Part shown: positions 37,182-56,179 of the stretch, one piece after another
Layout: each line of letters opens with the position of its first letter
Numbering within the stretch: position 1 is the first letter of the stretch
Assembly (NCBI GenBank): GCA_963377175.1
Contig: CAUJNA010002157.1
Span: 248,399-312,398, forward strand
DNA: 64,000 nt
Source: Effrenium voratum
Taxonomy: Eukaryota > Sar > Dinophyceae > Suessiales > Symbiodiniaceae
Direction: 5' to 3'
Position numbers and translations under genes: made by a program
Notes under the pieces: generated by a model
Told to the model about the DNA's origin: nothing
What the model saw: only the letters and a program-made list of their open reading frames with translations
The model's database searches: none

Positions 37182-37297
37182 AGGGTTCCACTTTTTAACT
37201 ACCCCAAGATAGACTTAAACCCAGGGCTTCTCCTTTTGGGGGTAATGAACAACCCTGGGTTTAAGTCGACCCTGGGGTACTCAAAAAGTGGAACCCT
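37182..37297. mobile_element. Foldback element with 44-bp terminal inverted repeats
   Basis: The left arm starts AGGGTTCCACTTTTTAACTA and ends GACTTAAACCCAGGG. The right arm starts CCCTGGGTTTAAGTC and ends CTCAAAAAGTGGAACCCT. The arms pair over about 44 bp with only a few mismatches around a spacer of about 25 bases. It is non-coding, and no clear target duplication is seen. Confidence 0.8.
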
Positions 37298-37419
37298 GAC
37301 ACCACCCGCAAATGATCTTTGCTCTAGCGGGCGGTAGCGCTCGAGGTGTGTGTTTGAAAAGCTGGTTGCCATGCAGACTTCCTGAGACCGACTTGATCGC
37401 GGGTAGGGATTCAGGAAAA

Positions 37420-37927: not shown

Positions 37928-38270
37928 GGCTTAGTTGTGGAGTGATAGCGGTAAGAAAGGTATAAACTCGGTCACCAACCACTTGCTAATGTAGCCCATT
38001 GCCCACCCTTGTTGGGTCCCTTGAGTGTGGTGCCTCAGAGCATCCGGCTGAGGTGCTATGCCAAGCTGATGGGCAAGGGTAAGGCTCGGAAAGGGAAGAA
38101 TTGAGAAAGCCCGGTACCAACGCGGGTGCGTTTACAATCATGGCCCTCTTTCGGCTGCTATTTGAAAACCAATTGTTTGAGACACACTATACCCATCTTG
38201 GGGGTTGATTGAAAGATTGTACTACATTTTACATGCATGTTTTGCAAGCCCCCCCATTGAGTTCCCTTGT

Positions 38271-38646
38271 CCAACCCCCCAACCCCCCCCCAACCCCCAA
38301 CCCCCCAAACCCCCCCCAACCCCCCAAACCCCCCCCCCAACCCCCAACCCCCCCAACCCCAACCCCAAACCCCCAACCCCCCCCCCAACCCCCCCCCAAC
38401 CCCCAACCCCAACCCCCAACCCCCAACCCCAACCCCCAACCCCCAACCCCAACCCCCAACCCCCAACCCCCAACCCCAACCCCAACCCCCAACCCCCAAC
38501 CCCCCCCCAACCCCCAACCAACCCCAACCCCAACCCCCAACCCCCAACCCCCAACCCCAACCACCCCCCAACCCCCAACCCCCCCCCAACCCCCAACCCC
38601 CAACCCCAACCCCCAACCCCCCACCCCCAACCCCCACCCCCACCCG
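38271..38646. repeat. C-rich CCCCCAA tract (G-quadruplex-prone on the minus strand)
   Basis: About 375 bp of irregular CCCCAA, CCCCCAA and CCCCCCCAA units with no G and essentially no T. Translations are Pro/Asn/Gln or Gly/Trp monotony, not proteins. The minus strand is (GGGGTTGGGGG)n-like. The tract ends about 10 bases before a candidate exon acceptor, where it could serve as an exaggerated polypyrimidine tract. Confidence 0.95.
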
Positions 38647-38655
38647 CGCCTCGAG

Positions 38656-38703
38656 GCGGTGGTGCTGGAGAAGCTCACGGAGGAGGCGGCCGAGCGCGCC
38701 AGG
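38656..38703 (+). CDS. Short coiled-coil exon after the C-rich tract
   Basis: After CCTCGAG (ending 38655) the frame reads AVVLEKLTEEAAERAR, 48 nt in phase 0, ending at a possible GC donor (38704, GCCCCA). Composition and phase match the coiled-coil exons at 23489, 32206 and 32550. It may belong to the same long gene. The frame stays open beyond, so the end is uncertain. Confidence 0.4.
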
Positions 38704-39059
38704 GCCCCAAAGCCAAGGGGAAGAAGCCGAGAAAATCGAGGGACGCCCGCGTGGGCGGTCTATGTGTCGTTTCCCCTTTGACACCCCGTGTCGTTTTTTT
38801 CCCTTTGACGCCCCAAGAGCAAAACAACTGATCTAGAAGCCACCAACCGGAATGGAGATGACTTGCCATTTTGGCTGTACCGTCGAAATGTCTTTCGCGG
38901 CTCTTGGGGTAACATTTCGGGGCAGCATGTGTGAGAATCACTTTCTGCGACGACGACACCAAACAATTGCTGCGGTACTATCCCCCGACGCAATCACGCC
39001 CAGGGATATCCTCAACAAATCACCAAACACACCATTGACATCCTTCAAGACACGCCCAA

Positions 39060-39545
39060 GTGTCGGGAAAGATGTCTTGAGGGGTTGTCTTAAAAGGTGA
39101 TGTCTCTGCAGGTGTCTTGGGGCTGCTGTTTTGGGAGACAGTTCGGTTTGGAAGCTGTCTTGGCGCGATGTCTTTTTGTGAATGTCTTTAGGGGGCCAGT
39201 CTGCGGGGGATTCTGTGGGGATGTCTTTGGGGGGTGTCTTTCCAGGACGTCTTCAGTTGTCTTGGGCGATGTCTTTGGGAATCTCAGTTAGGATGCTTTT
39301 AGGAAATATCTTTGGATGTCTTGCGGGTGTCCTTGGGGGTGTCTTCAGGGTTGAGTTTGGGAACCCAAGACAACCGCAAAGATGATTCCCAAGGACACCC
39401 CAAGACAACAGCAAAGACATCCCCAGCCAAGACATCACCTTTCAAACATATTCCCTTGTTATTACGCTCTAGTTCGCAGAGACAGCTTCCAAAGACACGT
39501 TGGAAGTCCTCTCCCCAAAGACATGCCTCGACAAACACCAAGAAA
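39060..39545. repeat. TGTCTT short repeats with a strand switch
   Basis: From 39060 to about 39360 the + strand is studded with GATGTCTT, GGTGTCTT and GTCTTGGG. From about 39365 to 39545 the complementary forms AAGACA and CCCAAGACA dominate. Matching pairs include AAAGGTGATGTCT-like sequence (near 39094) with AGACATCACCTTT (near 39430), and GGAAGCTGTCT (near 39150) with AGACAGCTTCC (near 39480). Confidence 0.6.
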
Positions 39546-40355
39546 GCTTCACACTCCGCACACTGAGGCAGAGCGCCTGCCACAGCATTCAACGCGTAAG
39601 CGTTGCACGTGCCACGAAACCGGCACGCCATGCATCAAAGCGTTGACCGATTTGAGCACAGGCGCATTAAAAGCTCAATCACCACATTGCGGGTGCGAAC
39701 TGTTGCGGACCGTTGCGAACGTTTACAACAACTAGAGCAGCATGTCGCGAACACGACCCCCACCCCCAAACCCCCACTTATAATGGGAACATATGGGAGC
39801 TGTGTCTTTTTCGGGCTAGACCTCAGACAGCTTCAGATTTGGGCCTTGTGCTCCTCTTTGTTTGGGTGTTCATTTTTGCGGTTTCCTCCAGTTTCCTTTG
39901 GGTGGCTTCTTTTTCAGGTTCACTGCTTCCCTTCAAGTACACAAATTGAGCCTTCTCTCCCAAACAGAATCTCAGGTGAGCAGCCCATGAGCTTTCAACT
40001 GGACCAGCGTCTGAAATCTACTCGGTTTGGAGAAAGATACAAGCAATGGCTTTGTTTCTTGAGGCTTGTGTCAACCATGCCCCTGTGGCGGGTCAAAAAT
40101 CGGTACCCAAAGTCGAACCCACGTCGGGTTGAGCCGCTTCAGGCAAGGCCAATTGGGCCCAAGTGTCTCACGTCTCACGTTCCCCGAGGCTGTGGATCAG
40201 CTTCGGTCTTCCGGCTTTGTCGCGGAGGCCGGACATGTTTTCTGTTTTATCCCCACCAAGTTTCTTGTTCTTGAAGTTTTGGCCAACATTATTTTCCTTG
40301 AAGGTTTGTGTGCGTATGTTTTTTTGTTTGTATGTGTATACGTGTGTGTTTGTGT

Positions 40356-40707
40356 GTGTGTGTGCGGAGTGACAGAATGCCCTGTCACCACCCTTTCGGT
40401 TTCTCAGCAGGGGGCCAGCGGCCATCAAGCAAACGCTGGCCAACGAAGCTATGCTTGATGGTGGATGCACGGATTGATCACCCGTGTGTACCTGCGTTTG
40501 TGAAGTGATGTTGATGAAAGTCCTTTTGGCCCTCTCCTTTCGCTCGCTGTGTGTGCTTCATGTTGGAACTGGTAACGTTTTCGACACTAGAGTGAAACCG
40601 AGTGCATTGCGAGCCGAACCCACACCCACTCGAGACTCATCAGTTGTACTCGAGACTCATCAGTTGTACTCGAAAGATTAGCACTCTCCATCTGGAGTTT
40701 AAGTGTG
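40356..40707 (+). repeat. Left terminal direct repeat of the retroelement
   Basis: It begins GTGTGTGTGCGGAGTGACAG inside a host GT microsatellite, which blurs its exact start, and ends GGAGTTTAAGTGTG. It contains a 20-bp tandem doublet (ACTCGAGACTCATCAGTTGT twice, from about 40627). It probably carries promoter signals for the downstream ORFs, but none is recognised. Confidence 0.93.
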
Positions 40708-41001
40708 TACACCCCATTCGTGGGGAATCCTCGGGTGTACCCATTGTGTGACCCCGGGCCGGCTCTGTCGGAAAATTTGACCTCAACGTGCTTATCATAG
40801 AACAGCGGAATTTCACATTTAACCAGGAACGAGGTCTCACTAAAGGGAAGACAGCGGTCAGATCATAGAGACGTCTCACCATCGATGTTTGCTTGCCATT
40901 TGTTGGATTCGTTGATACCTTGCCGTTGCATGGATTTGCTTGTTGTCTGATACGTGTCTCTCAAGATGGAAGCGTGAAGATTGAGAGTCGATTGTGTAAC
41001 C
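40708..41001 (+). promoter_or_regulatory. Leader of the retroelement
   Basis: Non-coding 5' region between the left repeat and ORF1. It opens with nested inverted repeats: GTACACCC (40707) with GGGTGTAC (40733-40740), enclosing CCCCATTCGTGGGG (40712-40725), a 5-bp stem capped by TTCG. A pyrimidine/GT-rich stretch ending TCTCTCAAG (to 40965) is the candidate trans-splice acceptor for ORF1. Confidence 0.5.
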
Positions 41002-42468
41002 ATGTCTCGACGTGATGATCGTGATAGATCCAGGACTCGGCGCAGACGTGATCGGAGTACTTCTCCTCAGGCTCGTAAAGCACACCGACGTGAACACAAT
41101 GACCACCACGTCTCGGAAGGCATGGATTGGAACAACCTGGTATCTTGGCAACACAATTCCGGCTACAACTCTGCCAACAATTTCCCGATGATGCCCACCA
41201 ATTTTCAATCGACTCACAGTCCCACACAGCAATTCCAACACCCAGCGATCAACTACATGATGCCGATCCCTCCAGACCCCACGCCAACGAAGTTCATGCC
41301 ACCCGTGATGCCACCACCGGTCACTACTCCGCAACCTACACCGCCACCTGGACCTCCTGCGGCTCTACCGGTTCGCCCTCAGAAAGCCTGGCTTACACCA
41401 TCGCCTGACTGGACACCTGGAGATGGCATGTTTGATGTCAATCAGCTCTACAACTTTAGCCTGCCCATGACCGTTGCCAACACTCCGCATGGCAACCTGC
41501 GCGACATGTCAGGCATGGATATTCGTGACGTTCGCCTGGTTCAGGTTATTCATGGGGGCCTCACCAACTGGCTGCTCCGACCGTTCGCTCACGGCAGATT
41601 CGTGACGTGGGAAGGCTTTCGCACTCGCACCGAGGCCTTACTTTGGAGTACCTGTTCCAAACTACTACGACGATCACAGTCGATCAACCTGCTCACCCTG
41701 GAAAAGGACCTTGCCAACTCGCTGGGTCTCAACATCGATGACTTCAATCAGCGGATCAAGGTTCATGACCATTTGGCCAGCTTGGTACTTCAATTTCTTC
41801 AGCAACACCACGCCTCTCTCACACCTTCCACCCAGACAGATGACATGGTCAAGAAGTACAATGATCTAAATCGTGCGCATGAGCTGCTCCAGGCTCAGTA
41901 TTCAGCATCGCTGCGCGCTTCGACCTCTCCCACGATGGCAAGCCAGAAAGATGATGCAGAGTTGGTTACACCGCCACCGGTCAACCACACACCATCCTCG
42001 TCACCTGCCAGCTCCCTTCCTACAGCCAGCGCAGCGGCCCTTGATGGCAAGTCGTTTGATAGCGCGGTGCAACCCCGGATCATTCAGTCTCTTCACGGAG
42101 TGTCTTCACCGCCGTCCAAGCCGGCGGCGTCACAATTGCTCACCATGCACAGCACGCCGGAAGAAGTTGTCAAGTACTACACATGGACCAGTGACCAGCC
42201 ACGCCTTTATCTCAAGCAATCGCCCACAACCACGACTTTGACGTCACTGGTCAAGTGGGCCAATCACCCGTCCCGGCTCAACGGCAACAAGTCATTAGAT
42301 TCCATGGCGACGCAGCTCCTTCAAGCGCGTCAACGCATGCCGAAAGGCGACGCACCTACTCTCGGGGCGATGGCGGCTTCGTGGGGACTGGAACCCGGCT
42401 ATCTCACCAAGCTCACTGAGAAGGCGTTGAGTCACCTCATCGTGACCGCTCGCCTACTCAGCGGATGA
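41002..42468 (+). CDS. Retroelement ORF1: RS- and proline-rich protein (488 aa)
   Basis: ATG 41002 is the first in frame after the candidate acceptor at 40965. The N-terminus is RS-like (SRRDDRDRSRTRRRRDRS), followed by an Asn/Gln/Pro-rich spacer with PPPVTTPQPTPPPGPPA. A folded-looking domain comes next, from about residue 140 (QLYNFSLPMTVANTPHGNLR to FNQRIKVHDHLASLVLQFLQ). After a low-complexity linker, a second helical domain runs from about residue 385 (EEVVKYYTWTSDQPRLYLKQ to KALSHLIVTARLLSG). By position it could be a Gag- or ORF1p-like nucleic-acid-binding protein, but no zinc knuckle or RRM is visible. This is inference from place and composition only. Confidence 0.75.
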   Translation: MSRRDDRDRSRTRRRRDRSTSPQARKAHRREHNDHHVSEGMDWNNLVSWQHNSGYNSANNFPMMPTNFQSTHSPTQQFQHPAINYMMPIPPDPTPTKFMPPVMPPPVTTPQPTPPPGPPAALPVRPQKAWLTPSPDWTPGDGMFDVNQLYNFSLPMTVANTPHGNLRDMSGMDIRDVRLVQVIHGGLTNWLLRPFAHGRFVTWEGFRTRTEALLWSTCSKLLRRSQSINLLTLEKDLANSLGLNIDDFNQRIKVHDHLASLVLQFLQQHHASLTPSTQTDDMVKKYNDLNRAHELLQAQYSASLRASTSPTMASQKDDAELVTPPPVNHTPSSSPASSLPTASAAALDGKSFDSAVQPRIIQSLHGVSSPPSKPAASQLLTMHSTPEEVVKYYTWTSDQPRLYLKQSPTTTTLTSLVKWANHPSRLNGNKSLDSMATQLLQARQRMPKGDAPTLGAMAASWGLEPGYLTKLTEKALSHLIVTARLLSG

Positions 42469-42650
42469 GCAGGCATCTTAACGACCTTCGTTCTCTTATG
42501 AGCCCGGAGCGGCAACCGTGTCACGGATGAGTCAAGGTTAAAACTCGTCCGTCATCTTTCTGCGTTGCATCAGTTTGATCTTGTACTTGGTTGTGCTTGC
42601 ATTGACTTGTGCGTGATTGTCTGTGCAGCTTGTATCCATGTCGCCGCCTT

Positions 42651-45600
42651 ATGGTAGATTTCATTGGTTGCATTTTCACCATGTTGGATGAGCTTCGCCG
42701 CTGTGGAATCTATGATGATGTTGCACAATGGCAGTCTCTGGACAACTTTTTACACTCGTTGACCATGTTCTCTACGTGCTGGCAATACTGCTTCCCTGGA
42801 CTACCACCACCGTCGATACCAGCTGATGAGTACGAATCAATCACACAACTACCGTGGTTGGGCCTCATTCTGGAAGTCTTAGTTGTGGTCCGGATTGCCC
42901 TTCAGATTCCGAATCACGCTATGTCACACTCTCAACACACTGTGGCCAACAGGTATGAGATTCATAGATGTCGGTGCACTGCCTATTTATTGATCAGTTT
43001 CTTACAACGTCTCATTTCCCAAGATCATGGCTACTTTCCGCCGTTCTTTGAAGTCCTTCACTTCTACAAGGCTTCTCTCTTGTGTGAAATCATGCACTCC
43101 ACTTTTGCCGACACGCGACATCTTCGCTCATTGCGGGCACGATTTCCGGACCTCTATGACTTCATTCACGATCCAGGTCATCATCAACAACCGTGCGTCT
43201 ACATCCGACTTTCCCCATGGCACACACCTTACTACGTTGGTGCGACTGATCAGGATGTTCTACGACGTGAACACTCACGCAGTCGCAAATTTCTACAACT
43301 ACTTCGAAGACGTCATGCCTTCTTCGAACCCGCGCTTCACTACTGGAAGCGATCCAATACTTACTGGCTCTTCTGTGCTGTTCCGGTTGAGATCAAACTT
43401 CCCGTTTCCTCGGTTTGGGTCCAGGAAAGCAAATGGCAATACCTGCTACGCCCGCATTTGAATGCACCCTGGGTACACAGACTTCTGCGAAAGGTGGGCT
43501 TCCGGGAACACCTCGTTGATTTTCGACGTCACTCGTTGTCGTCTCCCACTTCCCTCGGCTTGCACAAACGCTTTCGACGACGACTACATCCGGATCTCCA
43601 ACGGCAACTACGTCCCGACATGCTGGATGACATTCAGGCCCATTACTCTATTCTCTATCAGCTGGGATCCAATACAGGTGCATCGTTCCAAGCCATGCGT
43701 GACCTTCTGTCGGCAGCTTTCCCTCCTACTCAGCTTTACTACTTTCTGCGGCTCTCCGTCTTTGTCAACGAGCCCTTCCGCTCCAAGGCGCAGAAACTCC
43801 TCGCCCAGGTGTTACGCAAGCGACAGCTACAATCACCCACCACTTTGACACAACTACTCCTACCGCCTCTACATGTCCAGAATTGGAAAGCTCTACTTGG
43901 CACATGGTTACAAAGCTGGATTGCTTCTCATCGTGATTTGTTTCCCTCCCTTTTCCTTCCAAAGATCCGGGTGGTGGAAACTCGCAGTGCCACGTTGGGC
44001 GACAAGATCTACAACTACCGCACATGGCAGCGCAGATGGACTCCTGAAACATCCTTTCCGTGTCGCTGTTTGGACATCGATGATCACCATATACACCGAG
44101 CACATGGACATGCTGTAATGGTTGATGAGTTCTCACGCATCAATGCGGACATTGACATGGAAATCATGGCCGCATCAATGAAGGATCAGTATTTCGGTGA
44201 TGTCGACTTGTTACATCAACGTTTCACCACGCAACTTCGCAAACTTGCTCGTCGCTGGCATGTGCATGGTTCCAGTCTTCTTGTTGATCTGCAGCCGGTT
44301 TTGACTCAGTTGATGGACACTCATCGAGCTAACCTTCAAGATCGTGCTTATTGGTCATCGACATCGTTGCAGCGCACCGTGGCTTCTCTGTCATCGTGGG
44401 TTGTAATCCCCGCGGATCATTTCCCCTCCCGCGCACATGTGATTTGTCCGTCCCTGTTTGCCATACTGATGCGGAAGACCTTTTGCTCGGGAGATGTCTT
44501 TTCGCTTTGCCGTGAATCCGCAGCATCTTTTCGCTCTGAAGTGGTAACTACGGTACCTTCCCTCCTACGTCAGCGATATGCATGGGGACTTCGACTTCAA
44601 GCACCGTTGCCCACAGCTCGCATCCTTCCAAAGCCGACCAAGGACTGGCAGAAAGCACGACCCATCATTTCATTCTTTCGCACGTGGGCAGCTCCCTTCC
44701 TCACGGTCTTCGGCGCCCTCATATTTGAACTTACCAAAGCTACTTTTCCCGACATTGCAGGTCAACTTTCAGTACAAGAACTTGTCCAGCAGCTGTGGGA
44801 GTCGCTGTCAAAGGCAGATCCCGATGAATACATCCACCTGGTGTCACAAGACCTGTCAGGCTTCTTCACGTCCATTCCTACGGAACGCTTCCACCAGGCA
44901 CTACAAGTGCTTCTCCATCGGTACGATCAAGTTGTTGGCCTTCGCAGATCCTCTCAATGGTCAGTGTTCGAAGTAAAGTCTGATCATCGACGCCGTATGT
45001 TCAAAGGAAAATGGCGCCGTCAAACAAAGATCCCTCGAACTTTTCATGAACAAGATCTCCGGCACCTTCTGGACTTTGTCATTGACAACAGTCACTTCGA
45101 GATCAACGGATACTTGTTCCGCCAAGAACGGGGAGTCGCTATGGGATCACCAGCCGCGCCACCGCTCTGCAATTTGGTTGCCACGGTTGAGGATTTCTTC
45201 TGGCACCAGACAATGTGTTCTCTGCGTTTTCGCATGCCCGATATCGGTGTGATCTGGCATGAGCGCTACGTCGACAATCGTTTCATTCTACTTCGTGATT
45301 CAGCCCCACACTCGCCCGTGCTCATGAATTTTCTTTCCCTGGAATTTTATCGCCCACCAGTGATGCTTGAGGTTCAACATGATGACAAAGTGCTGGGCTA
45401 TCGATGTGATTCTTCTTCCAGAACTATTACACCACAGCTACCTGATCATCCCTCCCAAATCAAAGGAATTCGGAGTGCCAATGATCAGATGTTTACTTAT
45501 TCTTCCTGGTCTTCTCGCTCCTGGCTCATCATACGTGGTGCACAACCTGCGGTTCAGCAACAGCAAGGACTTAACGCTCTCAAGCGCCTTTATGAGGCCA

Positions 45601-45710
45601 AAGGTTTCGACCCCCACCTTCTCCGTGACGTTCGGCGTCGACTCGGGACAAAATCTGCATGTGAGCTTGTCATGTTGTCTCTTCTTGCGCACGCTTGTGA
45701 TTGTTGTTGA
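42651..45710 (+). CDS. Retroelement ORF2: GIY-YIG endonuclease plus Penelope-like reverse transcriptase (1019 aa)
   Basis: The start is the first in-frame ATG after CTGTGCAG (ending 42628). A short out-of-frame ATG precedes it at 42638. Residues about 181-275 form a GIY-YIG nuclease: CVYI (182-185), YYVG (194-197), LRREH (204-208), and QESKWQYLLRPHLN with Glu259 and Asn271 in the places of the catalytic Glu and conserved Asn. The reverse transcriptase follows: KARPIIS (668-674), QDLSGFFTSIP with Asp734 (motif A), QERGVAMGSPAAP around Met831 (motif B), and RYVDNRF (motif C) with Y873-V-D875-N876. This is YxDN instead of the usual YxDD. The motif style (FFTSIP, GVAMGSP) is that of Penelope-like elements, but with the nuclease N-terminal. 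The frame is intact. The product would copy element RNA into DNA at a nicked target. Confidence 0.88.
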   Translation: MVDFIGCIFTMLDELRRCGIYDDVAQWQSLDNFLHSLTMFSTCWQYCFPGLPPPSIPADEYESITQLPWLGLILEVLVVVRIALQIPNHAMSHSQHTVANRYEIHRCRCTAYLLISFLQRLISQDHGYFPPFFEVLHFYKASLLCEIMHSTFADTRHLRSLRARFPDLYDFIHDPGHHQQPCVYIRLSPWHTPYYVGATDQDVLRREHSRSRKFLQLLRRRHAFFEPALHYWKRSNTYWLFCAVPVEIKLPVSSVWVQESKWQYLLRPHLNAPWVHRLLRKVGFREHLVDFRRHSLSSPTSLGLHKRFRRRLHPDLQRQLRPDMLDDIQAHYSILYQLGSNTGASFQAMRDLLSAAFPPTQLYYFLRLSVFVNEPFRSKAQKLLAQVLRKRQLQSPTTLTQLLLPPLHVQNWKALLGTWLQSWIASHRDLFPSLFLPKIRVVETRSATLGDKIYNYRTWQRRWTPETSFPCRCLDIDDHHIHRAHGHAVMVDEFSRINADIDMEIMAASMKDQYFGDVDLLHQRFTTQLRKLARRWHVHGSSLLVDLQPVLTQLMDTHRANLQDRAYWSSTSLQRTVASLSSWVVIPADHFPSRAHVICPSLFAILMRKTFCSGDVFSLCRESAASFRSEVVTTVPSLLRQRYAWGLRLQAPLPTARILPKPTKDWQKARPIISFFRTWAAPFLTVFGALIFELTKATFPDIAGQLSVQELVQQLWESLSKADPDEYIHLVSQDLSGFFTSIPTERFHQALQVLLHRYDQVVGLRRSSQWSVFEVKSDHRRRMFKGKWRRQTKIPRTFHEQDLRHLLDFVIDNSHFEINGYLFRQERGVAMGSPAAPPLCNLVATVEDFFWHQTMCSLRFRMPDIGVIWHERYVDNRFILLRDSAPHSPVLMNFLSLEFYRPPVMLEVQHDDKVLGYRCDSSSRTITPQLPDHPSQIKGIRSANDQMFTYSSWSSRSWLIIRGAQPAVQQQQGLNALKRLYEAKGFDPHLLRDVRRRLGTKSACELVMLSLLAHACDCC

Positions 45711-45748
45711 TGTATTGCGTTGTGTCTGCATGCAGCTGGCTCAGAACC

Positions 45749-47122
45749 ATGGCGGAGTACACGGTCACCAGTCTCTTACGCTCAGACGGATCAGTGCAAA
45801 CTACGAGCCGCGTGACGCTGGAGCACCTTCCCAACTTCATCAACGGCAATGAGATGCAAATGTTCATCCGGACACACGGACTAGCACACCAGCAAAGTGT
45901 ACAATCCCACGGCCCATCCCGTGACGCTCCGGCACTTGGATCCGAGGCCAACATCCGAGCGGTACGCAATCACACCGGAAGGTCACGCTCGCGCTCACCC
46001 AGGTCCCGTCATTCCCGGATCAAGCTCACCCCAGGCCCACAGGGAAAGTCAGATGAGGAGGAGGACTGGGGTGAATGGAAAAGTGATGGGAGGCGTGCTC
46101 ATAGTGATCAAAGGAGGCCCCGCTCGCCTCCGTTGCCTCCCGCTCAAGTCAGTCCATCCGAGAACCGCATTGTGCTGCTGCCTCTCTCAGTTCGACAGCA
46201 TGTACCCGATTTTGGCAGTCATCGCTTCAAGCTGCGCACTGGTTGCCGGGTCGAGGAAATTGCCATCGTAGTGAATGATGTCCTTTACTACACCTTGCCC
46301 TCGATTGCCGCCTTAGTATTTCCTGAACCTGAGCAGTGGAAGAAATCGTGGGAGACGGTCTACAGGAGCCTCATGCCGCATCGCCGCAGCATCATCGAAG
46401 ATGAGCAGCGGGTCAAGTCCATTTCGGAGTTTCCGTTTTCTCCGCCACCACATGGCGTCCCGGGACGTTGGACGGATCAAGTGGTCAGAGACATTTCTGA
46501 CTACTTCCAGATCTCCCCGAAGTCACTGCCGCAGCAACTCATCGTACAGCTTGGCATTTGCGAAGAAAAATGGCCATATATCAGCAGGACTGCACGGACG
46601 TATCACCACTTCTCGACGGACAAAAAGCACTCCCAGAAGAACCTCTTCGGGATCATCTTCTCGTTTGAGCCGCGCCGATTGCTGCCGGACAAGCATCGCA
46701 CTCAGTCACAGTCGACGTTTTTCTGGTCCCACAACACCAATATGCAGGCGGCCATGAACATCCTGCGTGATGAAGAGCTGATCAGACCCTCAAAATGGCA
46801 AGAGCATCCTTCCCCCAATCGCGAGTGCTCAAACTGGAACGAAGTCTGGTTGCCTCCGATGGGATTTTACTGCAGGGGCAGCCTTCATTCTCAAGAAGCG
46901 GCAATCCAATCAGCAGCGCAGTTCGCGGGAATTCACACGGATCGCCCCGTGTGTATTGGTGGAACTGCACGTCTCCGGCAACAGCATTGCACCATACCCC
47001 GTGGCGGAGTGTACGCTGACATAGCTGCTTCCCATTACTATGACTGCATTCACGCCAAAGATGGCAGGTGGAAACTCCGATCATCGATTGCGGTGCCCAG
47101 CTACATGGGCATGTTCTGGTGA
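45749..47122 (+). CDS. Retroelement ORF3: unrecognised protein with RS segment (457 aa)
   Basis: ATG 45749 (ACCATGG) is the first after the candidate acceptor TGCATGCAG (ending 45735), 39 bases past the ORF2 stop. Residues about 87-100 are RS-rich (GRSRSRSPRSRHSR), followed by an acidic stretch (DEEEDWGEW). The C-terminal 270 residues look globular, with ISDYFQISPKSLPQQL, a segment FFWSHNTNMQAAMNILRDEE followed by LIRPS, then MGFYCRG and GGVYADIAASHYYDC. The S/H-N-T...A-x-x-IL-x-x-x-x-IRPS layout faintly recalls ADP-ribosyltransferase or Tpt1/KptA folds, where a start motif is followed by an amphipathic helix and an (I)RP turn. This is only a hint. No catalytic set is proven. Confidence 0.75.
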   Translation: MAEYTVTSLLRSDGSVQTTSRVTLEHLPNFINGNEMQMFIRTHGLAHQQSVQSHGPSRDAPALGSEANIRAVRNHTGRSRSRSPRSRHSRIKLTPGPQGKSDEEEDWGEWKSDGRRAHSDQRRPRSPPLPPAQVSPSENRIVLLPLSVRQHVPDFGSHRFKLRTGCRVEEIAIVVNDVLYYTLPSIAALVFPEPEQWKKSWETVYRSLMPHRRSIIEDEQRVKSISEFPFSPPPHGVPGRWTDQVVRDISDYFQISPKSLPQQLIVQLGICEEKWPYISRTARTYHHFSTDKKHSQKNLFGIIFSFEPRRLLPDKHRTQSQSTFFWSHNTNMQAAMNILRDEELIRPSKWQEHPSPNRECSNWNEVWLPPMGFYCRGSLHSQEAAIQSAAQFAGIHTDRPVCIGGTARLRQQHCTIPRGGVYADIAASHYYDCIHAKDGRWKLRSSIAVPSYMGMFW

Positions 47123-47356
47123 ACGACTATGGCAATGCAGTCTGACAACCCTTTTGCACAGGCCCACCGTGGTTTGTGCCCTGACTTTCATGGTGTACAT
47201 CATGACGCTCCTCTTCCGGAAAAAGCGTATGGGGTTGCCTGAGGCTCATGTCTTGATGAAGTGTGTTGCATGCTTGTTGTGTTGCTTGCCGTCGCCGCAT
47301 TTGAGTAGATTACTGATTGATTTGGCCCTCTCTGTCGCATCTTCACCTGCATTGTG

Positions 47357-47860
47357 ATGGATCATGGGGACCTTTTACGTGAATGTCGGCACATGCTGCT
47401 TGCCATTTCGTCGCAAATCAGTCTTCTTCTGGCCGGACTGCAACGTCTTGAAGGCCAGCAGCGGCATCCACAGCCGCCACCACCGCCACCGGTTCCTGAC
47501 GGCCAACCACCGCCGCTACCCCCGCCGTCTACGACGCCACCGCCCTTGCCGGCAACATCAGTCCGGCCAGATTACATGACAGCACCGGTCACTCTTGTGG
47601 CCACCTCAGACAACCGTACGGAGCACCCTGCTCACGTCCGCACGGTGAGTGTCAGTACTTCCTGGGAGCACAGACGGAGGAGAAGGTCCAGACATCGGGA
47701 GCCTCATCGGCGTCGATCTCGCAGTCATCACCGGCGGCTTCCTGGCCGACCTGACGACGCGGTTCCCACGTCCCGCCGCCATGCCTACAATCCGAAGTAC
47801 CCGCCGGCAGTCAAGGCCATGCCGGCGTGTCGACCATCAGGTCTGTCGTATGACCGTTGA
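47357..47860 (+). CDS. Retroelement ORF4: small proline/arginine-rich protein (167 aa)
   Basis: ATG 47357 opens a frame with an N-terminal hydrophobic/amphipathic helix (LLRECRHMLLAISSQISLLL), a poly-proline region (HPQPPPPPPVPDGQPPPLPP), and an Arg/His/Ser-rich tail (EHRRRRRSRHREPHRRRSRS). The upstream 200 bases are rich in TTGCTTG. The architecture (short helix, Pro, RS) parallels ORF5. The function is unknown, and binding of RNA or nuclear speckle factors would fit the RS tail but is not shown. Confidence 0.6.
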   Translation: MDHGDLLRECRHMLLAISSQISLLLAGLQRLEGQQRHPQPPPPPPVPDGQPPPLPPPSTTPPPLPATSVRPDYMTAPVTLVATSDNRTEHPAHVRTVSVSTSWEHRRRRRSRHREPHRRRSRSHHRRLPGRPDDAVPTSRRHAYNPKYPPAVKAMPACRPSGLSYDR

Positions 47861-47979
47861 CGGAACACCAGCGGCAAAAGGACCTCAGTATTTCGGCGCA
47901 TGCATGTTCGCAAGCATCATGTCTTCGCAGTTCCGCAGCCTTACTTGCTTGATTTGTCCTTGCTGTGTGTTCATTTGCC

Positions 47980-48708
47980 ATGCAGTTGTCAGCCGAGTTT
48001 GTGAATAACCTGGTGGCGGTACTCAATGTCCTTGCATCCCAAGTTGCGACAGCTCTGGACACCCTGAACTTTGCCCTGATGACCGAGCGAAGCCATCCGT
48101 CAGACACTAGAGTGTCTCCCAGGGCACCACGGAACTCCAGACATGGGCTGCGCCCTCGCATCATCACAGAGCGCATTTCGTCTGACCGATCCCGCTCTCC
48201 CACTCGAATTCGAACCCGACCTTTGGACACTTCATCCACCTGGTATATACCGGCCTTATCCCCGCCTCGTGCGGCACATCGGGATGCCGCTGACAACAAT
48301 TCTGGTTGTCGGCCTGAATCGATGTTGGATCACCTGCCACCACCTCGGCCGCTTGCTCCCTTAGCCCCACACGGCGGACGAGAACCAGGACAGATGACGC
48401 CTACGACACCTGACTCGGATTCTGATGGCTCAGGGCGTCCACATCCAGGTGCCTCGTCGTTCCGACCGTCTCCTACGGTGGTTCATGGACCTCGGGAACT
48501 TCTACAAGAATTCACCATTGCACTTCGCAATGCACACCGTGAACCTTTCACGGCATGGACACAGGGTGAGCTGGATGAGATGGTGCGACGGAAGAAAGAC
48601 AAGGATTCCAGGCCCACCTACAAAACCATTGCTCGGTTCCTTCAGAAGCCCATTGAGGAAGTCAAGCAGGCATGGAAGGTCTATCAGCAACTTGAGGCTC
48701 GCGGCTAG
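47980..48708 (+). CDS. Retroelement ORF5: RS-containing protein (242 aa)
   Basis: The frame starts at ATG 47980, but the candidate acceptor CATGCAG ends at 47985. If splicing occurs there, this ATG is lost and the next in-frame ATG, in ALMTERSHP, would be used. The N-terminus is a hydrophobic helix (FVNNLVAVLNVLASQVATAL) like that of ORF4. An RS segment (SSDRSRSPTRIRTRPLD) and Pro/Asp/Ser linker follow. The C-terminal 75 residues look folded (ELLQEFTIALRNAHREPFTA, then WTQGELDEMVRRKKDKDSRP and IARFLQKPIEEVKQAWKVYQ), a helical domain somewhat like a SANT/Myb or HTH arrangement. No family is assigned. Confidence 0.65.
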   Translation: MQLSAEFVNNLVAVLNVLASQVATALDTLNFALMTERSHPSDTRVSPRAPRNSRHGLRPRIITERISSDRSRSPTRIRTRPLDTSSTWYIPALSPPRAAHRDAADNNSGCRPESMLDHLPPPRPLAPLAPHGGREPGQMTPTTPDSDSDGSGRPHPGASSFRPSPTVVHGPRELLQEFTIALRNAHREPFTAWTQGELDEMVRRKKDKDSRPTYKTIARFLQKPIEEVKQAWKVYQQLEARG

Positions 48709-48937
48709 GAACCCGGTCATCAAATGCAACAGCGACCACCGGAGGACTAAATGGTAGGCCGTGGCGGCGTATTCGGCTAGCGCTGCAGGTTGTTGCGACG
48801 GTTGGGATTGTAGTCATTATTGATCACATGAAATTTGCTTGCTTGCACTTGACTGACATTTTACCAGGGTAATATTGCTTGCCGTTGTGGGTGTTGCTGC
48901 TGACGTGAATTGATTGCATGACTGAGTTGCTCAAATC

Positions 48938-49507
48938 ATGTCGGAACAAGTCGTACAGACGTACATTACATGGACCCATGGAGCGCAGCCGACGTGGTTA
49001 CAATTTCACGGACCTGGAGCCCTGCTTGACAGACCCATTCGGCAGACTACGTCACCTCCGCCCCCACCAAGTTTCCCACTGCTTCTTCCACCTCCGCCTC
49101 CTCCACCGCCACCACCACCGGTGATTCTACACCCACAGTTTATGCCCTCAGTACGGAGCCCCTCGATCTCAGCTCCTCGCGGACAATCCTGCCCTGCCAC
49201 ATCGAAATCGCAGCGCACACGCCGCTCGATCTACAGCACTGACCATTCCCGTGATGAAGAGCTACGCAGTCCAGGGCGTTCATCCAAACGATCTCGGACA
49301 GCATCCGCTTCGGCACCGCGGAGATCTCGGCGGCCCTTTACCGTGTTCCCCTCCAAACGTGCTGGCCGTCCATCGCTGTCCCCATCGGCAAATTGCAAGC
49401 ATTACTGTCATGCCTTCCTGCGCCACGGGCGGAAATGTCTTTCCCCTTGTGATCGTAGACGACCAGGACATTATCATTGCAGGTGTGCGCGGCATCAACG
49501 GCGGTGA
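48938..49507 (+). CDS. Retroelement ORF6: proline/RS-rich protein with Cys/His tail (189 aa)
   Basis: ATG 48938 follows a TTGC-rich stretch. An AG at 48926 would remove an earlier out-of-frame ATG at 48918. The N-terminus (VVQTYITWTHGAQPTWLQFH) is followed by a long proline tract, an RS-like region (RSSKRSRTASASAPRRSRR), and a C-terminal Cys/His cluster (CKHYCHAFLRHGRKCLSPC, then HYHCRC). The cluster could be a zinc-binding motif of CCCH or knuckle type, but spacing fits no standard finger exactly. Another frame is also open at the 3' end (to 49514), so the C-terminus is less certain than the rest. Confidence 0.5.
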   Translation: MSEQVVQTYITWTHGAQPTWLQFHGPGALLDRPIRQTTSPPPPPSFPLLLPPPPPPPPPPPVILHPQFMPSVRSPSISAPRGQSCPATSKSQRTRRSIYSTDHSRDEELRSPGRSSKRSRTASASAPRRSRRPFTVFPSKRAGRPSLSPSANCKHYCHAFLRHGRKCLSPCDRRRPGHYHCRCARHQRR

Positions 49508-49659
49508 AGCTTAGGCGTCGTACTCGCTGCTGTGTCTCACCTTGAGTTTGAAAAGTTGCCTTGCATCCCTTCAGCTGCGCGCGGTTGTCATTGCATGTGT
49601 GTCTTCGCCGCAGATTTTCGATTGCTTTTAGCGGCCGCGCGAGAGCCTGTCTTGCCGCT

Positions 49660-50043
49660 ATGAACCCTCAATATTTCGAGTACCAGATCGACAGAGGAGT
49701 GGAATGGATTCGAATTTACTCACCGGGCACGTGGCGACCCGTTCCCGATGATGCTCCAGTGCTCGACCCGGTCTACGCTTCCACGTATCGGGAGTGGCGC
49801 AGGTCATATCGCTTCCAAGTGTACTGGTCCGAAGACAGCGCCGGAGGAACAACAACGGATCCCATTGTCACGCCCAGTTCGTATGTGTCCTACCACGTGT
49901 GGGAGTACCGAGACTGGCAAACACGAGGGTATCAACGACTTGGAGCTCCTTTACCAGCCATTGGACTCGCGATGCTCGTGAATGCAGACGCCAATTCCTC
50001 GGTGGACTCATCGGTTAGAGCCGTCACCACCACCATTCTATGA
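49660..50043 (+). CDS. Retroelement ORF7: first member of a four-copy family (127 aa)
   Basis: ATG 49660 is the first in-frame ATG after GTCTTCGCCGCAG (ending 49613). The protein holds the family signature: YFEYQI near the start, EWIRIYSPGTWRPV, TYREWRRSYRFQVYW and YRDWQTRGYQRLG. These blocks recur in ORF8, ORF9 and ORF10. It is Trp- and Tyr-rich and has no signal peptide or membrane helix. No known domain is recognised. Confidence 0.75.
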   Translation: MNPQYFEYQIDRGVEWIRIYSPGTWRPVPDDAPVLDPVYASTYREWRRSYRFQVYWSEDSAGGTTTDPIVTPSSYVSYHVWEYRDWQTRGYQRLGAPLPAIGLAMLVNADANSSVDSSVRAVTTTIL

Positions 50044-50210
50044 TCCTTGGAACGATTCGGAGTGATACTTGAGCAACATGTCGGATAAAATGACGCGGTT
50101 GTGCTTGCTTTGTATGCGATTCCATGTTGGGTTGTCTTGCTTGGTGTTGTGCGTTCCGTCTCCAGCTGTTCGCCGCCTTCATTTGACTCTGAGCGGTTTG
50201 CCTGGTTGAT

Positions 50211-50654
50211 ATGTTCAATTGTACAATGTATGGCGCAGCACGATGGGTCCTGCCTCGCTACTTTGACTATGACATCGTCAATGGCCCCGCGAATACGAGT
50301 GTAGAATGGATTAGGATCTATGTACCGGGTCCGTGGCATCCAGTCGCCGAGAACACTTTGGGACCAGCCCCGGATGACTCAACCACCTATCGGGAATGGC
50401 GCAAGGTTTACCACTTCGAAGTGTATTGGCCGAGGGATAGCACAGGCGGCACAAATACAGGTGCTGTTTCGCAGCCGGTATCTTATGCATCCTTCTATAC
50501 TTGGCATTATAGAGACTGGGTCACCAGGGGATACCAACGGCTGGGTCGCCCACACCCTAGCATTGCGCGGCCAGTTTTCGCTTCGGGCGCACCGGACCTC
50601 ATGTACGCTGGATTGACCTCTTCATCGGCATCCTCCAACTCGGATGGTGGCTGA
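50211..50654 (+). CDS. Retroelement ORF8: second member of the family (147 aa)
   Basis: The acceptor candidate is CCGTCTCCAG (ending 50165). ATG 50211 is used here, and a second in-frame ATG follows five codons later. Blocks YFDYDI, EWIRIYVPGPWHPV, TYREWRKVYHFEVYW, YTWHYRDWVTRGYQRLG and a Ser-rich tail match ORF7 over nearly its whole length. It is the closest paralogue of ORF7. Confidence 0.75.
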   Translation: MFNCTMYGAARWVLPRYFDYDIVNGPANTSVEWIRIYVPGPWHPVAENTLGPAPDDSTTYREWRKVYHFEVYWPRDSTGGTNTGAVSQPVSYASFYTWHYRDWVTRGYQRLGRPHPSIARPVFASGAPDLMYAGLTSSSASSNSDGG

Positions 50655-50836
50655 TGCTTGTCCTCGCCTTCCTGGGGAGTCTGTTCATTTCAATTCGATT
50701 CGGGAGATTGACTTCGATACCGGAGCCGTGCATTGCTGCAAAAGTGATTTCTTGCACTGTGGCAGTTGTGTCTCTTTCAGTAATTGTTGTCTGCAGCCGT
50801 ACACTTATCAATTTGTCTTTCCGGGTTTGCGTTGTC

Positions 50837-51418
50837 ATGCCGTGGCTGGAATGGTGTCCGGATCCTCAACAACCAGATGCCCAGTGGGTCAAGATCTTTC
50901 ATCCGGGCTCATGGACTCCACATGAAGAACATGATGCTCCACCTCCACCGCACACGTATAGAGAGTGGAGGGAGTTCTATGCTCCCAACCCGGACCAAGA
51001 CGGTGAGCAGCTCAATGTCACCATGTGGTACAAAAGAGACTGGGCCACAGAGGGCTATCGGAGAGTCGCTGCCCCTCAAGCTGGTCATGACTTTGATTCT
51101 ATGTCTTTTCCTGATCATCACAGCGTGGCCACGCAATCCGCGGCATTGAGTATGTCACCGCAGATGTTAGAAGCGATCCTTAGATCCTCGGATGCGGCGG
51201 ATTTCTCTACCGAAGAACTGACTCGTCTCCAAGAGGGGATTTCTCAACAACTGACAGCTCGCGCACGTCACGCTTCCCAACTTCATCAACCTGTACGTGC
51301 ATCACGTGGAATCACACCATCGGAGACGGTTGGGGTCTCCGAACCATACCGGCCTGTTAATCCTTCCGACAGCTGCAAAGCCAAGGCGAGACCTATCTTC
51401 GAGCTAAATGAGGACTAG
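50837..51418 (+). CDS. Retroelement ORF9: third member of the family, extended (193 aa)
   Basis: The same frame is open from 50654, but the acceptor candidates CTCTTTCAG (50780) and GTCTGCAG (50796) make ATG 50837 the likely start. It has WVKIFHPGSWTPH, TYREWREFY and WYKRDWATEGYRRVA, matching ORF7/8 with a shorter middle. An extra C-terminal region follows: a helical segment (SPQMLEAILRSSDAADFSTE) and a basic tail. The extension may add a second function. Confidence 0.7.
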   Translation: MPWLEWCPDPQQPDAQWVKIFHPGSWTPHEEHDAPPPPHTYREWREFYAPNPDQDGEQLNVTMWYKRDWATEGYRRVAAPQAGHDFDSMSFPDHHSVATQSAALSMSPQMLEAILRSSDAADFSTEELTRLQEGISQQLTARARHASQLHQPVRASRGITPSETVGVSEPYRPVNPSDSCKAKARPIFELNED

Positions 51419-51567
51419 ACGCACGCGAGTGGGGTAGCGTACAAAATAAGGTGGTTTTCACACTTGCATTACCTTGCTTGGTTGTTGCTTGTACATGGTT
51501 GTGCATGGTGCCTGTTCCTCTATCAGCTGGATCGGAGCCCGCGATACGCCTTGCCTCTTACTTCGAC

Positions 51568-52078
51568 ATGGACATCGAGGATTCGAAGCAGCACCCATGG
51601 CTCGAATACTCGGTCTGGCAGGATCAGGAGTGGGTGCGGATCTACACTGCAGGACAGCCTCAGCGATGGCACCACGGAGAAACTGTACCTGATCTACCAG
51701 ACAATTCTTTTCGGGAATGGCAGCGGGTGACTGATCCCAATGGGCACTGGTGAGCACGGTCAGGCATGGACCATCCGCGACTGGCAGCATCAGGGATACC
51801 AGCGCATTCTGTCTCGAATGGAGTCCTTCACAACTCATCATTCGCATGATCAATCTCTTGGTGAAGTTCGGAATTCCGATGCCATTCCAGTTGAGGAGAC
51901 GTTCACCTATGCTACTCCGTTTTCTCATGGTGATCGCTCGACTGCTTCACAACTCGCTTCAGTCCTCTATGGCGACACTCGTAATGCTCAACGTGGTGAT
52001 CTCTCGTTCCCGTCTTCTGAGCGGTTTAGGGCTGTTTCTCGTTCCCCTCGCCGCGGTGGATTTTTTGGTCAACGATAG
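51568..52078 (+). CDS. Retroelement ORF10: fourth family member, frame-shifted
   Basis: After TCCTCTATCAG (ending 51526), ATG 51568 opens a frame with EWVRIYTAGQPQRWH and SFREWQRVTDPNGHW, which stops at TGA 51751-51753. The continuation AWTIRDWQHQGYQRIL and a Ser/Arg tail (SRSPRRGGFFGQR) lies in the +1-shifted frame, open 51740-52078. The two pieces together match ORF7-9 end to end. Either this copy is inactivated by an indel near 51740-51753 or it is read by a programmed shift. The overlap is only 14 bases and no obvious slippery site is seen, so mutation is simpler. Confidence 0.6.
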
Positions 52079-52125
52079 GGACACGGGGTTGAGCATGTGA
52101 TCTTCCTGCGGAAAAGGAGACTCCT

Positions 52126-52144
52126 CGCCCCTCATTGAGGGGCG
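52126..52144 (+). terminator. Hairpin immediately before the right terminal repeat
   Basis: CGCCCCTCA and TGAGGGGCG are perfect inverted repeats separated by one T, giving a 7-8-bp stem in RNA. It lies 47 bases after the last stop codon and abuts the right repeat. A role in RNA processing, or in recognition by the reverse transcriptase, is possible but not shown. Confidence 0.45.
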
Positions 52145-52495
52145 TGTGTGTGCGGAGTGACAGAATGCCCTGTCACCACCCTTTCGGTTTCTCAGCAGGG
52201 GGCCAGCGGCCATCAAGCAAACGCTGGCCAACGAAGCTATGCTTGATGGTGGATGCACGGATTGATCACCCGTGTGTACCTGCGTTTGTGAAGTGATGTT
52301 GATGAAAGTCCTTTTGGCCCTCTCCTTTCGCTCGCTGTGTGTGCTTCATGTTGGAACTGGTAACGTTTTCGACACTAGAGTGAAACCGAGTGCATTGCGA
52401 GCTGAACCCACACCCACTCGAGACTCATCAGTTGTACTCGAGACTCATCAGTTGTACTCGAAAGATTAGCACTCTCCATCTGGAGTTTAAGTGTG
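52144..52495 (+). repeat. Right terminal direct repeat of the retroelement
   Basis: Identical to 40356-40707 except T at 52403. It is directly preceded by a 19-bp hairpin (52126-52144). Host sequence begins at 52496. Confidence 0.95.
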
Positions 52496-53659
52496 AGCCT
52501 AGAGCGGCTGCAAGATGCTTCGGACTGCTTCCTTTGGTTGCTGGTTTCAGCGGCCAATCTTGTTGGGTTTCCTATGGCTCCACGGGTGGCGATGATTGAT
52601 TGGTTGTCAACTCCAACAGGAGGCCTCCTGGAGGCAAGCTGCAGAGAATGCAGCAAAGAGTTCGAAGGGTGTGAATTCTTGAGTTGGGTTCTTCCATTTG
52701 CTTAAGAATATGTTTTTGTTTTCCCCTGTTGGTTCAAAGGGAATGTATCACTACTGGACATATGTTTACTTTTTCCAGGGGACTTATGCAAGTGGAGGGG
52801 TTGGAAGCGGCAGCATCAGCCACAATTGTAAACATCCAGCACGCAGGCCGCTGGAGCGACAAAGGGTTCGATCTGTTTTGTGGTCACCTTTTGGTTCCGG
52901 CAATGCCCATTTGTTTTGCCTCGGCATGACGCTGAGGACAGTCTCCACAGCTACAAATTGGTATGGCACGCAAGGATTGGATGAAACACCTGGCGGGTTG
53001 TCGAAAGGGGCCATGGTTTTGACAACCCCCGCCTGAAAGTGGCACTGTTACTTTAATTCTTGCTGAGACGTTGGGCTTGCATCTTCTGTTCTGGAAGCAG
53101 GATGGATTTCAGGAGTCAGAGGTCAGCAAGCACTCAAATGCTGATGAACGTGGTTCGGATGACCAGGGTTTCAGAGTCCCTCTCTTCGTCCAGAATCTAA
53201 CAAATTCTCCAACAAACAAACTGGGATTTTATGGTGTGGAATTGACGGCAACAACTGACAGGAATGCCCTTATTTTGGGCAGGAACGAAAAGGGAAACAA
53301 ACTACTGTTAGCTGAACATCCCAGAATAGCTGACACTTCCAACATTTCAGAAGTAGCTGGCGTGCAGCTAGGCATGGCCCGAAGGTTTTGTTGCCGGCGG
53401 CCTCCACTGCGCACTAGTTGCGACACTGCAATCATTGCGGCACTCTCTTCGCCTTTGCCGATTAAACAAGAGGAGCAGCTTCGTTCGAGTTCTCTACAAA
53501 GGCTGGCAACCTCAGAAGTTCCTGGCAACAAGCCCAGAATCACTGTGACATGTGGCCAGTTCCAGGGTCTCATCTCCCTGCAAGCCTGTTCATCACTAAT
53601 TGCGATTGCGTATGCGTTGCGTCTTGATAGGTGGAGCCAATGCCCACGAAGGCTGAGAA
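52496..53659. other. Right flank of the retroelement, no recognised gene
   Basis: An open frame of 201 codons (53071-53676, +) has no recognisable domain and lacks clear splice or start context. It is left unannotated as a gene. A hydrophobic stretch at about 52740-52800 is not convincing. Confidence 0.3.
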
Positions 53660-54654
53660 ATCATAATTTAAATTGAAAAATATTTTGATATTCAATAGAT
53701 AAATCAAACATCATGAATTATCTTTATACATAGATATCACGAAAGCTAGCTTTAGCTAGCTGAAATTTCTCTTTGCGTAAGAAGGTAAGGGGTTGAATTA
53801 CCGAAAGATTTTTTTTCTTTTTTTTTCTTCAATTATTTGAACCGAAAAAATTGAAATTATTTAGACTCCCCTCCCCTCCCGGTCTTAGGCTTGATTCTTT
53901 TTTGGTTTTTCTTTCCTTTGGGTAGTGGTTTAATATTTTAGAAATCTTGGTTTGCTCGTTATTACTATATTAGATAGGTCGATAATAAAATAGATTTATA
54001 AATATATTATTTTTTAATTCGGTAAAATTTATAAAATACGATATATAAACATATACAATAATATAACAAACCTTAAAAAATAAAAACAACGAAAGGTATT
54101 AGAAGTTATTTTAAATTTTATATATTATGTATAAAATTTTTTGTGAGGTGGTTTATTAAGAAGATTAAGGTTTTAAATAAATAAATTAAATCGGTGGAAT
54201 ATATATTATTAGTTTTTGTTTATTTGTTTTTTAAATTTTAAATATTGATTTAAAATATATTTATTTATAAATAATTAAATTCTATTTTTTTATATATTGG
54301 TATATTGGTATTTGGTTTTTTTTTTTAGGAATTGCGAATAATTAAATATATTTATAGAATGTTTATTTATTTTAATATTTATATAGATAAATACTTAAAT
54401 ATATATATATATATATTTATATTTGATTTTATAATAATAATTTAATTATTTTTATGTATGATATTATAAATACATATATATTATATTTATTAAATTTTAT
54501 ATATTATTATTTGTATTTTTTTTATTTTTTTCCGAAATTGTTTAATTTTTTTTTTTGTTTAAACCACAAATTTTGTTTGCGAATTGTTTGTAGGAGTTTT
54601 GGTTTTTTTAAGTCTGAGATTATTTTATTTTTTTTACCTACGAACTTACCCCCC

Positions 54655-56140: not shown

Positions 56141-56179
56141 GTTGCTTAGTGCAGTTGCCGCAGGCGTCGCCACAGGGTT

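Follow-up and report, generated by a model that had tools for sequence, protein, structure and literature searches.

A ten-gene, putatively Penelope-like retroelement with paired direct repeats in the genome of the dinoflagellate Effrenium voratum

Within a 64,000-nucleotide stretch of the genome of the dinoflagellate Effrenium voratum (GenBank assembly GCA_963377175.1, contig CAUJNA010002157.1, positions 248,399 to 312,398 of the forward strand; hereafter, the window), we describe an element of 12,140 bases on the plus strand (40356..52495), bounded at each end by a 352-bp direct repeat and encoding ten open reading frames (ORFs), one of which (ORF2) specifies a candidate endonuclease-reverse transcriptase (RT). 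We interpret it, with a probability of about 0.7, as an autonomous multi-gene retroelement whose mode of action is that of Penelope-like elements carrying an endonuclease, here a GIY-YIG nuclease at the N terminus. The order repeat, ORF1 through ORF10, hairpin, repeat is fixed across many copies in this genome. Membership in the Penelope-like group rests on motifs and behaviour, and the family name is provisional. A first-pass annotation made from the letters of the window had proposed near-identical repeats enclosing ten same-strand ORFs; this layout was confirmed at exact coordinates (Table 1), with one mismatch between the two repeats.

The assembly (1,155,904,702 bases in 3,699 contigs) was searched with the repeat and, separately, with the ORF2 protein. 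Of 1668 candidates for the repeat, 40 were scored, so that no copy number can be derived from this search and single matches may have unscored partners; the 40 comprise 13 close pairs and 14 single matches. Nine of the pairs, the window included, lie 10.9-12.1 kb apart and the other four about 1.5-1.6 kb apart. In all eight of the other long pairs the enclosed body is colinear with the window, with aligned blocks 90-99.8% identical, irrespective of local damage such as stretches lost in ORF3, ORF5 and the gap after ORF5 (copy C612) or an insertion inside ORF1 (copy C2351). The multiple copies with shared ORF order and boundaries that the first-pass annotation had named as a check on its proposal are thus present, and paired repeats enclosing colinear bodies rule out that the repeats are unrelated dispersed sequences. 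The protein search scored 45 of 2145 candidates, all 96-100% identical to ORF2 and 40 of them free of internal stops. From these we took ten further loci, none among the copies already compared. ORF1 sequence lies directly upstream at every one (over 981-1001 of 1001 bases at seven, over 123-400 bases at three), and ORF8-ORF10 sequence lies downstream at six, displaced by about 1 kb at one of these. Of the remaining four, three follow the window until they break off, in ORF3, in ORF4 and in ORF7, and at the fourth (C3456) ORF2 gives way abruptly to parts of a diverged relative described below. A cluster of host genes that accident had placed between dispersed repeats would share the same-strand arrangement, which dinoflagellate genes also show, and nothing else; identical order and ends at nine loci, together with the ORF content beside independently chosen ORF2 loci, refute this notion, to which we give almost no credence.

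Several lines of evidence indicate that the additional ORFs specify proteins. Between the repeats, stop-to-stop frames of at least 150 amino acids cover 84% of the plus strand, compared with 17% on average, and 38% at most, across 100 dinucleotide-shuffled sequences and 13% on the real minus strand. Ratios of nonsynonymous to synonymous substitution (dN/dS) were computed between the window and copies C99, C1480 and C612, in that order below, with shifted-frame controls; the C612 alignment is unreliable at ORF3 and ORF4, that copy being disrupted within ORF3 and beside ORF4. They were 0.07, 0.10 and 0.09 for ORF1; 0.11 in all three comparisons for ORF2; 0.22, 0.22 and an unreliable 0.93 for ORF3; 0.27, 0.23 and an unreliable 0.44 for ORF4; 0.29, 0.33 and 0.37 for ORF5; 0.16, 0.13 and 0.19 for ORF6; 0.30, 0.33 and 0.36 for the undisrupted part of ORF7; 0.16, 0.22 and 0.16 for ORF8; and 0.34, 0.33 and 0.30 for ORF9. 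The first 56 codons of ORF10 gave 0.10, 0.15 and 0.15, values drawn from 2-3 and 5 changes, and the rest of this ORF gave 0.67, 0.50 and 0.62. Ratios in shifted frames exceeded 1 with these exceptions: an ORF9 frame gave 0.88 with C99, both ORF3 frames fell below 1 with C612 (0.71, 0.94), and a frame of ORF10's second part did so with all three copies (0.67-0.85); some ORF10 frames were undefined, having zero synonymous changes. Codon use, compared with that of ORF2, favoured the true frame for every ORF except ORF6 and ORF8. Frame coverage relative to shuffles, together with dN/dS, rules out that the extra ORFs are chance frames, and by these substitution patterns, which show selection at the protein level, nine of the ten are clearly real proteins, ORF10 less so. 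Among the eight other long copies, ORF1 is intact in four, ORF2 in two, ORF3 in three, ORF4 in four, ORF5, ORF6 and ORF8 in five each, and ORF9 in all eight. ORF8 of three copies compared (C1284, C124 and C2351) derives from a different lineage (dS 0.36-0.39, dN 0.026-0.036 against the window) while the same copies differ from the window by less than 2% across ORF2-ORF6, which shows that lineages have exchanged genes.

The enzymatic assignment depends on ORF2, in which a GIY-YIG signature, a CxC linker and RT motifs A, B and C occur in the expected order (Table 1). The signature (amino acids 182-271 counted from 42651) occurs once in ORF2 and in none of 5000 shuffles of it, the pattern having been composed with the sequence in view; it is absent from six-frame ORFs of at least 100 amino acids elsewhere in the window. 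Motif A, DLSGFFTSIP, looks Penelope-like to us, and we take the significance of the CxC motif from the description of Naiad and Chlamys elements. When the RT stretch was submitted alone, RVT_1 (E 0.0042), a PHROG reverse transcriptase (E 0.0012) and TIGR04416 (group II RT; E 0.057) matched at one shared place covering motifs B-C, all below curated cut-offs where such exist. The earlier view that ORF2 is the sole ORF with a recognisable retroelement enzyme therefore holds, with an RT that profiles detect weakly. Queries of PDB with the ORF2 sequence, with the endonuclease part and with the RT part gave no matches or chance-level ones, and no nuclease with the endonuclease part; an AlphaFold model of ORF2 alone (predicted local distance difference test, pLDDT, 37) led nowhere. 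Searches by tblastn with ORF2 against phage records and with the RT part against plasmids returned no match; scans for close relatives of ORF2 or its RT core found none in IMG/VR viral contigs and confirmed none in prokaryote genomes.

The nine accessory ORFs fall into two sets. ORF1 and ORF3 to ORF6 contain stretches rich in arginine, arginine-serine (RS) or proline. ORF7 to ORF10 share a tryptophan (W)-rich domain with 16 invariant columns among nine sequences (the four paralogues and variants), which rules out that these four are mutually unrelated; ORF6 has the first segment of the domain and no more. In the window, ORF7 and ORF10 lack short stretches present in all eight other copies, which splits ORF10 over two frames, and six of those eight copies have ORF7 open over 135-140 amino acids and ORF10 over 170. 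When the ten ORFs were scanned with Pfam (for ORF10, the longer form of another copy), the accessory proteins had no significant match, and the W-domain alignment found none or chance-level matches in PDB. An AlphaFold model of ORF8 from the alignment of nine paralogue sequences reached a pLDDT of 49.6, and Foldseek returned 327 matches to it, none at E <= 0.001; several of the top rows are single-stranded-DNA-binding proteins, from which we draw nothing. RNA-binding and structural roles for the accessory proteins are guesses. They do bear on the alternative that the locus is an endogenous reverse-transcribing dinoflagellate virus whose extra ORFs encode particle proteins: selection acts on several accessory genes, and structural functions are conceivable for the four small paralogues (beta-rich in the poor model) and for several basic proteins. 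Set against this, no virion family was matched by any of the ten ORFs in Pfam, by ORF2 and part of ORF3 (the sole queries) in PHROGs, or by the W domain in PDB; the W-domain fold model is unusably poor, and searches of viral and phage collections found no close relative of ORF2; we judge a viral origin quite improbable.

The ends of the putative retroelement were compared in 13 elements, chosen as repeat pairs from the 40 repeat matches. The left flank is GTGT in all 13, often within a longer (GT)n tract and always with GT on the element's plus strand, and the right flank starts TGT in ten, the exceptions being C2900, C2491 and the window. Because the repeat itself starts GTGTGTGTG, ends GTGTG and sits at (GT)n, any target duplication is unreadable. 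All four short elements keep at least the sequence corresponding to window positions 40356-40880 and 52124-52495 around a middle unlike that of this element. Against C99 and C1480 the outer stretches differ by 0-2.9%, except for the C99 hairpin (5%) and right repeat (6%), and the leader by 1.7-2.9% in C99, C1480 and C612; seven of eight inter-ORF gaps differ from C99 and C1480 by 7.7-17% and one by 1.7-4.2%. The outer stretches kept by the short elements are, on this pattern, likely to be cis-acting ends. The short elements themselves (at C1302, C2900, C2491 and C670) are about 1.85-2.0 kb long and non-autonomous, and two stretches of them repeat a word like CGCCCGYTTAGGGATGGC. Folding of the repeat plus the next 53 bases was nothing special (z -1.1), and no hammerhead was among Rfam matches to E 10 in window positions 36000-56000.

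In 11 of the 13 elements the left and right repeats agree (0-4 substitutions) while copies differ from each other by exchanged blocks, so that some step mostly homogenises the repeats, as in long terminal repeat (LTR) elements or perhaps in Penelope tandems. In the remaining two, left and right differ by 19 and 23 substitutions (12 and 19 by pairwise alignment). An LTR-type retroelement, with true LTRs regenerated by strand transfer and an RT with GIY-YIG as an unusual polymerase module in place of integrase, would account for the agreement within and difference between copies, and also for repeats complete at both ends of all 13 elements, which were however selected for having two. It sits poorly with the two elements whose repeats are far apart, with repeats that terminate GTGTG and lie at (GT)n, and with Pfam results for the ten ORFs that list no protease, RNase H or integrase, and we consider it unlikely. 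Blocks have been exchanged inside the repeats: at about window positions 40498-40609, in the second third of the repeat, and in the matching part of the other repeats, a few cassette types occur in different combinations from copy to copy.

A more distant relative of the proposed Penelope-like element is represented by a fragment on C3456, 80% identical to window positions 50697-52495. Its ORF9 is open, with 72% amino-acid identity and a dN/dS of 0.24 at a dS of 0.61; its ORF10 is 72% and 45% identical in two parts; its hairpin has one centre change; and its repeat, 86% identical, continues into (GT)n. Upstream of this ORF9-ORF10-hairpin-repeat fragment lies part of an ORF2 (88% over 82 amino acids). 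The comparison is evidence that the gene order, at least towards the 3' end, has been kept over a long time. On C988 and C3456, diverged repeat pieces (84% and 86%) are joined to near-identical or diverged bodies, a sign of recombination between families.

In Amphidinium the polyadenylation site is marked by AAAAG/C and the trans-splice acceptor by AG, with no simple wider consensus for the latter (PMC2488372), and the spliced leader is thought to split polycistronic RNA (PMC7245778). The 21-nt dinoflagellate spliced leader occurs 251 times in exact form in the host genome, compared with zero occurrences of a reversed control, which marks the host as a dinoflagellate; an array of exact copies at C722:109307-122977, many of them about 136 bp apart, probably represents the host spliced-leader RNA genes. 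The spliced-leader core is absent from the window. By eye, the upstream side of each ORF has a T-rich, T/G-rich stretch and an AG, and T content is 30-40% in the 120 nt before ORFs versus 25% across the body. The word TTGCTTG occurs ten times in the body, each time no more than 160 nt upstream of an ORF start (1.4 expected; matched by 3 of 5000 random placements), and precedes ORF1, 4, 5, 6, 8 and 10. AAAA is present in eight of the ten gaps that follow ORFs, and in six of these eight it is followed by G or C; overall, 10 of its 21 occurrences are in noncoding DNA (3.3 expected, p 0.0006), compared with no excess for TTTT (5 of 34, 5.4 expected). Because the gaps mostly carry an A-run, a T/G tract and an AG as between dinoflagellate genes, we infer that trans-splicing and polyadenylation probably release the ORFs from a single RNA.

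A working model of the element would begin with a single genomic RNA running from within the 5' repeat to within the 3' repeat. The host spliced-leader and polyadenylation machinery would cut this RNA at the A-run, T-G tract and AG signals of the gaps into separate capped mRNAs. The ORF2 protein may nick the (CA)n strand, where the GUGUG end of the RNA would anneal and prime reverse transcription. Coating or escorting the RNA could fall to the products of ORF1 and ORF3-6, with their RS-, proline- and arginine-rich stretches, and the four W-rich paralogues (ORF7-10) could form an accessory or structural set. Carried to its full extent, this would be an autonomous retroelement of a new, multi-gene class that relies on the host spliced leader for expression, produces about ten capped mRNAs including those for structural or particle-like proteins, targets (GT)n by the GUGUG ends of its RNA, and is virus-like in organisation on a Penelope-type endonuclease-RT. 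We advance this wider proposal tentatively, as a possibility that we do not favour.

A number of observations count against the Penelope-like interpretation or parts of it. Pfam gave no GIY-YIG match to ORF2. The RT profile matches are weak and were obtained with the RT stretch alone: given the complete ORF2 protein, neither Pfam (E to 1) nor PHROGs and NCBIfam (both E to 10) listed an RT family. Motif C reads YVDN instead of the usual YVDD. Homogenisation of the repeats in 11 of 13 elements is LTR-like and not obviously Penelope-like, and both repeats of C124 and the left repeat of C2351 are 5-6% from those of the window, exceeding the divergence of most of their bodies. The second part of ORF10 is barely distinct from a shifted frame (0.50-0.67 versus 0.67-0.85), and codon use fails to favour the true frames of ORF6 and ORF8. 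As for expression, four ORFs have no TTGCTTG in front, two gaps have no AAAA, both words were picked after the sequence had been inspected, and the ORF leaders contain no clear spliced-leader relic (the best match, 8 of 12, is found in 4 of 10 leaders versus 22% of random stretches). On balance, the multi-gene part of the first-pass proposal, with genuine extra proteins, is borne out by colinear copies and substitution patterns, weakest for ORF10, and on the gene side the case is now stronger than that proposal made it; the Penelope relationship is likely and unproven, the motifs, pseudo-LTR (pLTR)-like repeats and microsatellite targeting agreeing with it and the RT profile matches being weak.

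Table 1. Coordinates (window positions) of the element's features
Feature	Position	Strand	Remarks
5' direct repeat, pLTR-like	40356..40707	+	starts GTGTGTGTG, terminates GTGTG
5' leader	40708..40880	+	probable cis-acting signal; common to 4/4 short elements examined
ORF1, 488 amino acids (aa)	41002..42468	+	arginine-rich N terminus, proline-rich middle; no known family
ORF2, candidate endonuclease-RT, up to 1019 aa	42651..45710	+	start may be 42681
GIY-YIG endonuclease motif region of ORF2	43194..43463	+	N-terminal to RT; signature match
CRC (CxC) motif	44061..44069	+	linker joining endonuclease and RT
RT core	44700..45401	+	DLSGFFTSIP (44850), MGSP (45141), YVDN (45267), right order
ORF3, 457 aa	45749..47122	+	N-terminal part RS-rich
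ORF4, 167 aa	47357..47860	+	rich in proline and arginine
ORF5, 242 aa	47980..48708	+	
ORF6, 189 aa	48938..49507	+	basic, proline-rich; N terminus weakly resembles ORF7-10
ORF7, W-rich domain paralogue	49660..50043	+	short deletion in window copy
ORF8, W-rich domain paralogue, 147 aa	50211..50654	+	52% identical to ORF7
ORF9, W-rich domain paralogue, 193 aa	50837..51418	+	open in 8/8 other copies
ORF10, W-rich domain paralogue	51568..52078	+	frame disrupted in window copy
Hairpin, perfect 9-bp stem	52126..52144	+	adjoins 3' repeat; kept in short elements and diverged family
3' direct repeat, pLTR-like	52144..52495	+	

Other features of the window lie outside the element. Just beyond it, positions 53000-58000 are AT-rich with strong strand asymmetry (GC 0.29-0.36, GC skew to -0.60). 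Upstream, about 8 kb of tandem repeats (23698-31847) are built on a 28-29-bp unit like CGTTGCCAACCACCATGAAAAATCATGGG, with higher-order periods of, for example, 58, 87, 133, 161 and 330 bp. A 118-bp long hairpin on the minus strand (37181-37298) scores against microRNA families (mir-607, E 2.5e-5, under the Rfam cut-off) and is perhaps a small inverted-repeat transposon. A minisatellite of the CCCCAACCC type at 38271-38645 leaves several frames open on both strands, giving long proline-rich or glycine-rich chance ORFs.

Among known systems the closest parallels are Naiad and Chlamys, reportedly described by Craig et al. 2021 as Penelope-like elements with an N-terminal endonuclease. They have a GIY-YIG domain before the RT, an arrangement that ORF2 appears to follow, and share with the present element a CxC linker, pLTR-like direct repeats, an insertion bias for microsatellites and the lack of a canonical hammerhead; unlike it they have essentially one ORF rather than ten. 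Canonical Penelope and Poseidon elements, which nick and extend target DNA, likewise have pLTRs and combine GIY-YIG with RT, but their endonuclease is C-terminal, their ORF single and their targets AT-rich (PMC3846280, PMC11167929). Dinoflagellate retrotransposons with a captured DNA methyltransferase also join a retroelement to an extra gene, but what is reported is the captured methyltransferase and not nine genes (PMC5890265).

The first-pass annotation had held that neither the Penelope-like nor the LTR plan accommodates nine extra proteins. That statement overlooks the Terminons of bdelloid rotifers, giant Penelope-like retroelements with an RT and several accessory ORFs, which are a clear precedent for a multi-ORF plan (PMC6431247). 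Could the element be a dinoflagellate member of that group of giant telomeric elements? The shared plan is the point in its favour. Terminons, however, are endonuclease-deficient (a GIY-YIG-like accessory protein can occur), whereas here the GIY-YIG signature shares an ORF with the RT; they are attached to telomeres, carry a 3' hammerhead and have other accessory proteins (PMC6431247), whereas this element has (GT)n flanks (the host telomere repeat was not looked for) and no hammerhead seen by Rfam. We regard such membership as very improbable. Among the open-licence papers listed, judged by titles and abstract openings, none showed an element of this kind. A 2025 paper states that TSAR, to which the alveolates belong, had yielded no report of Penelope-like elements until that paper's own Chlamys elements of brown algae (PMC12477816); the host here is a dinoflagellate, and thus an alveolate.

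Penelope-like elements were long considered compact, their coding part amounting to one or two ORFs; the large elements described as departing from this are telomeric and have no linked endonuclease (PMC6431247). A dinoflagellate element that combines many copies, ten genes and an endonuclease of its own would broaden the range of these retroelements. The short non-autonomous copies already point to cis-acting ends, which makes the mechanism directly testable. If the interpretation is true, a mobile element has adopted the 'stop to start' gene layout of dinoflagellates, and trans-splicing could explain how it affords ten separate genes.

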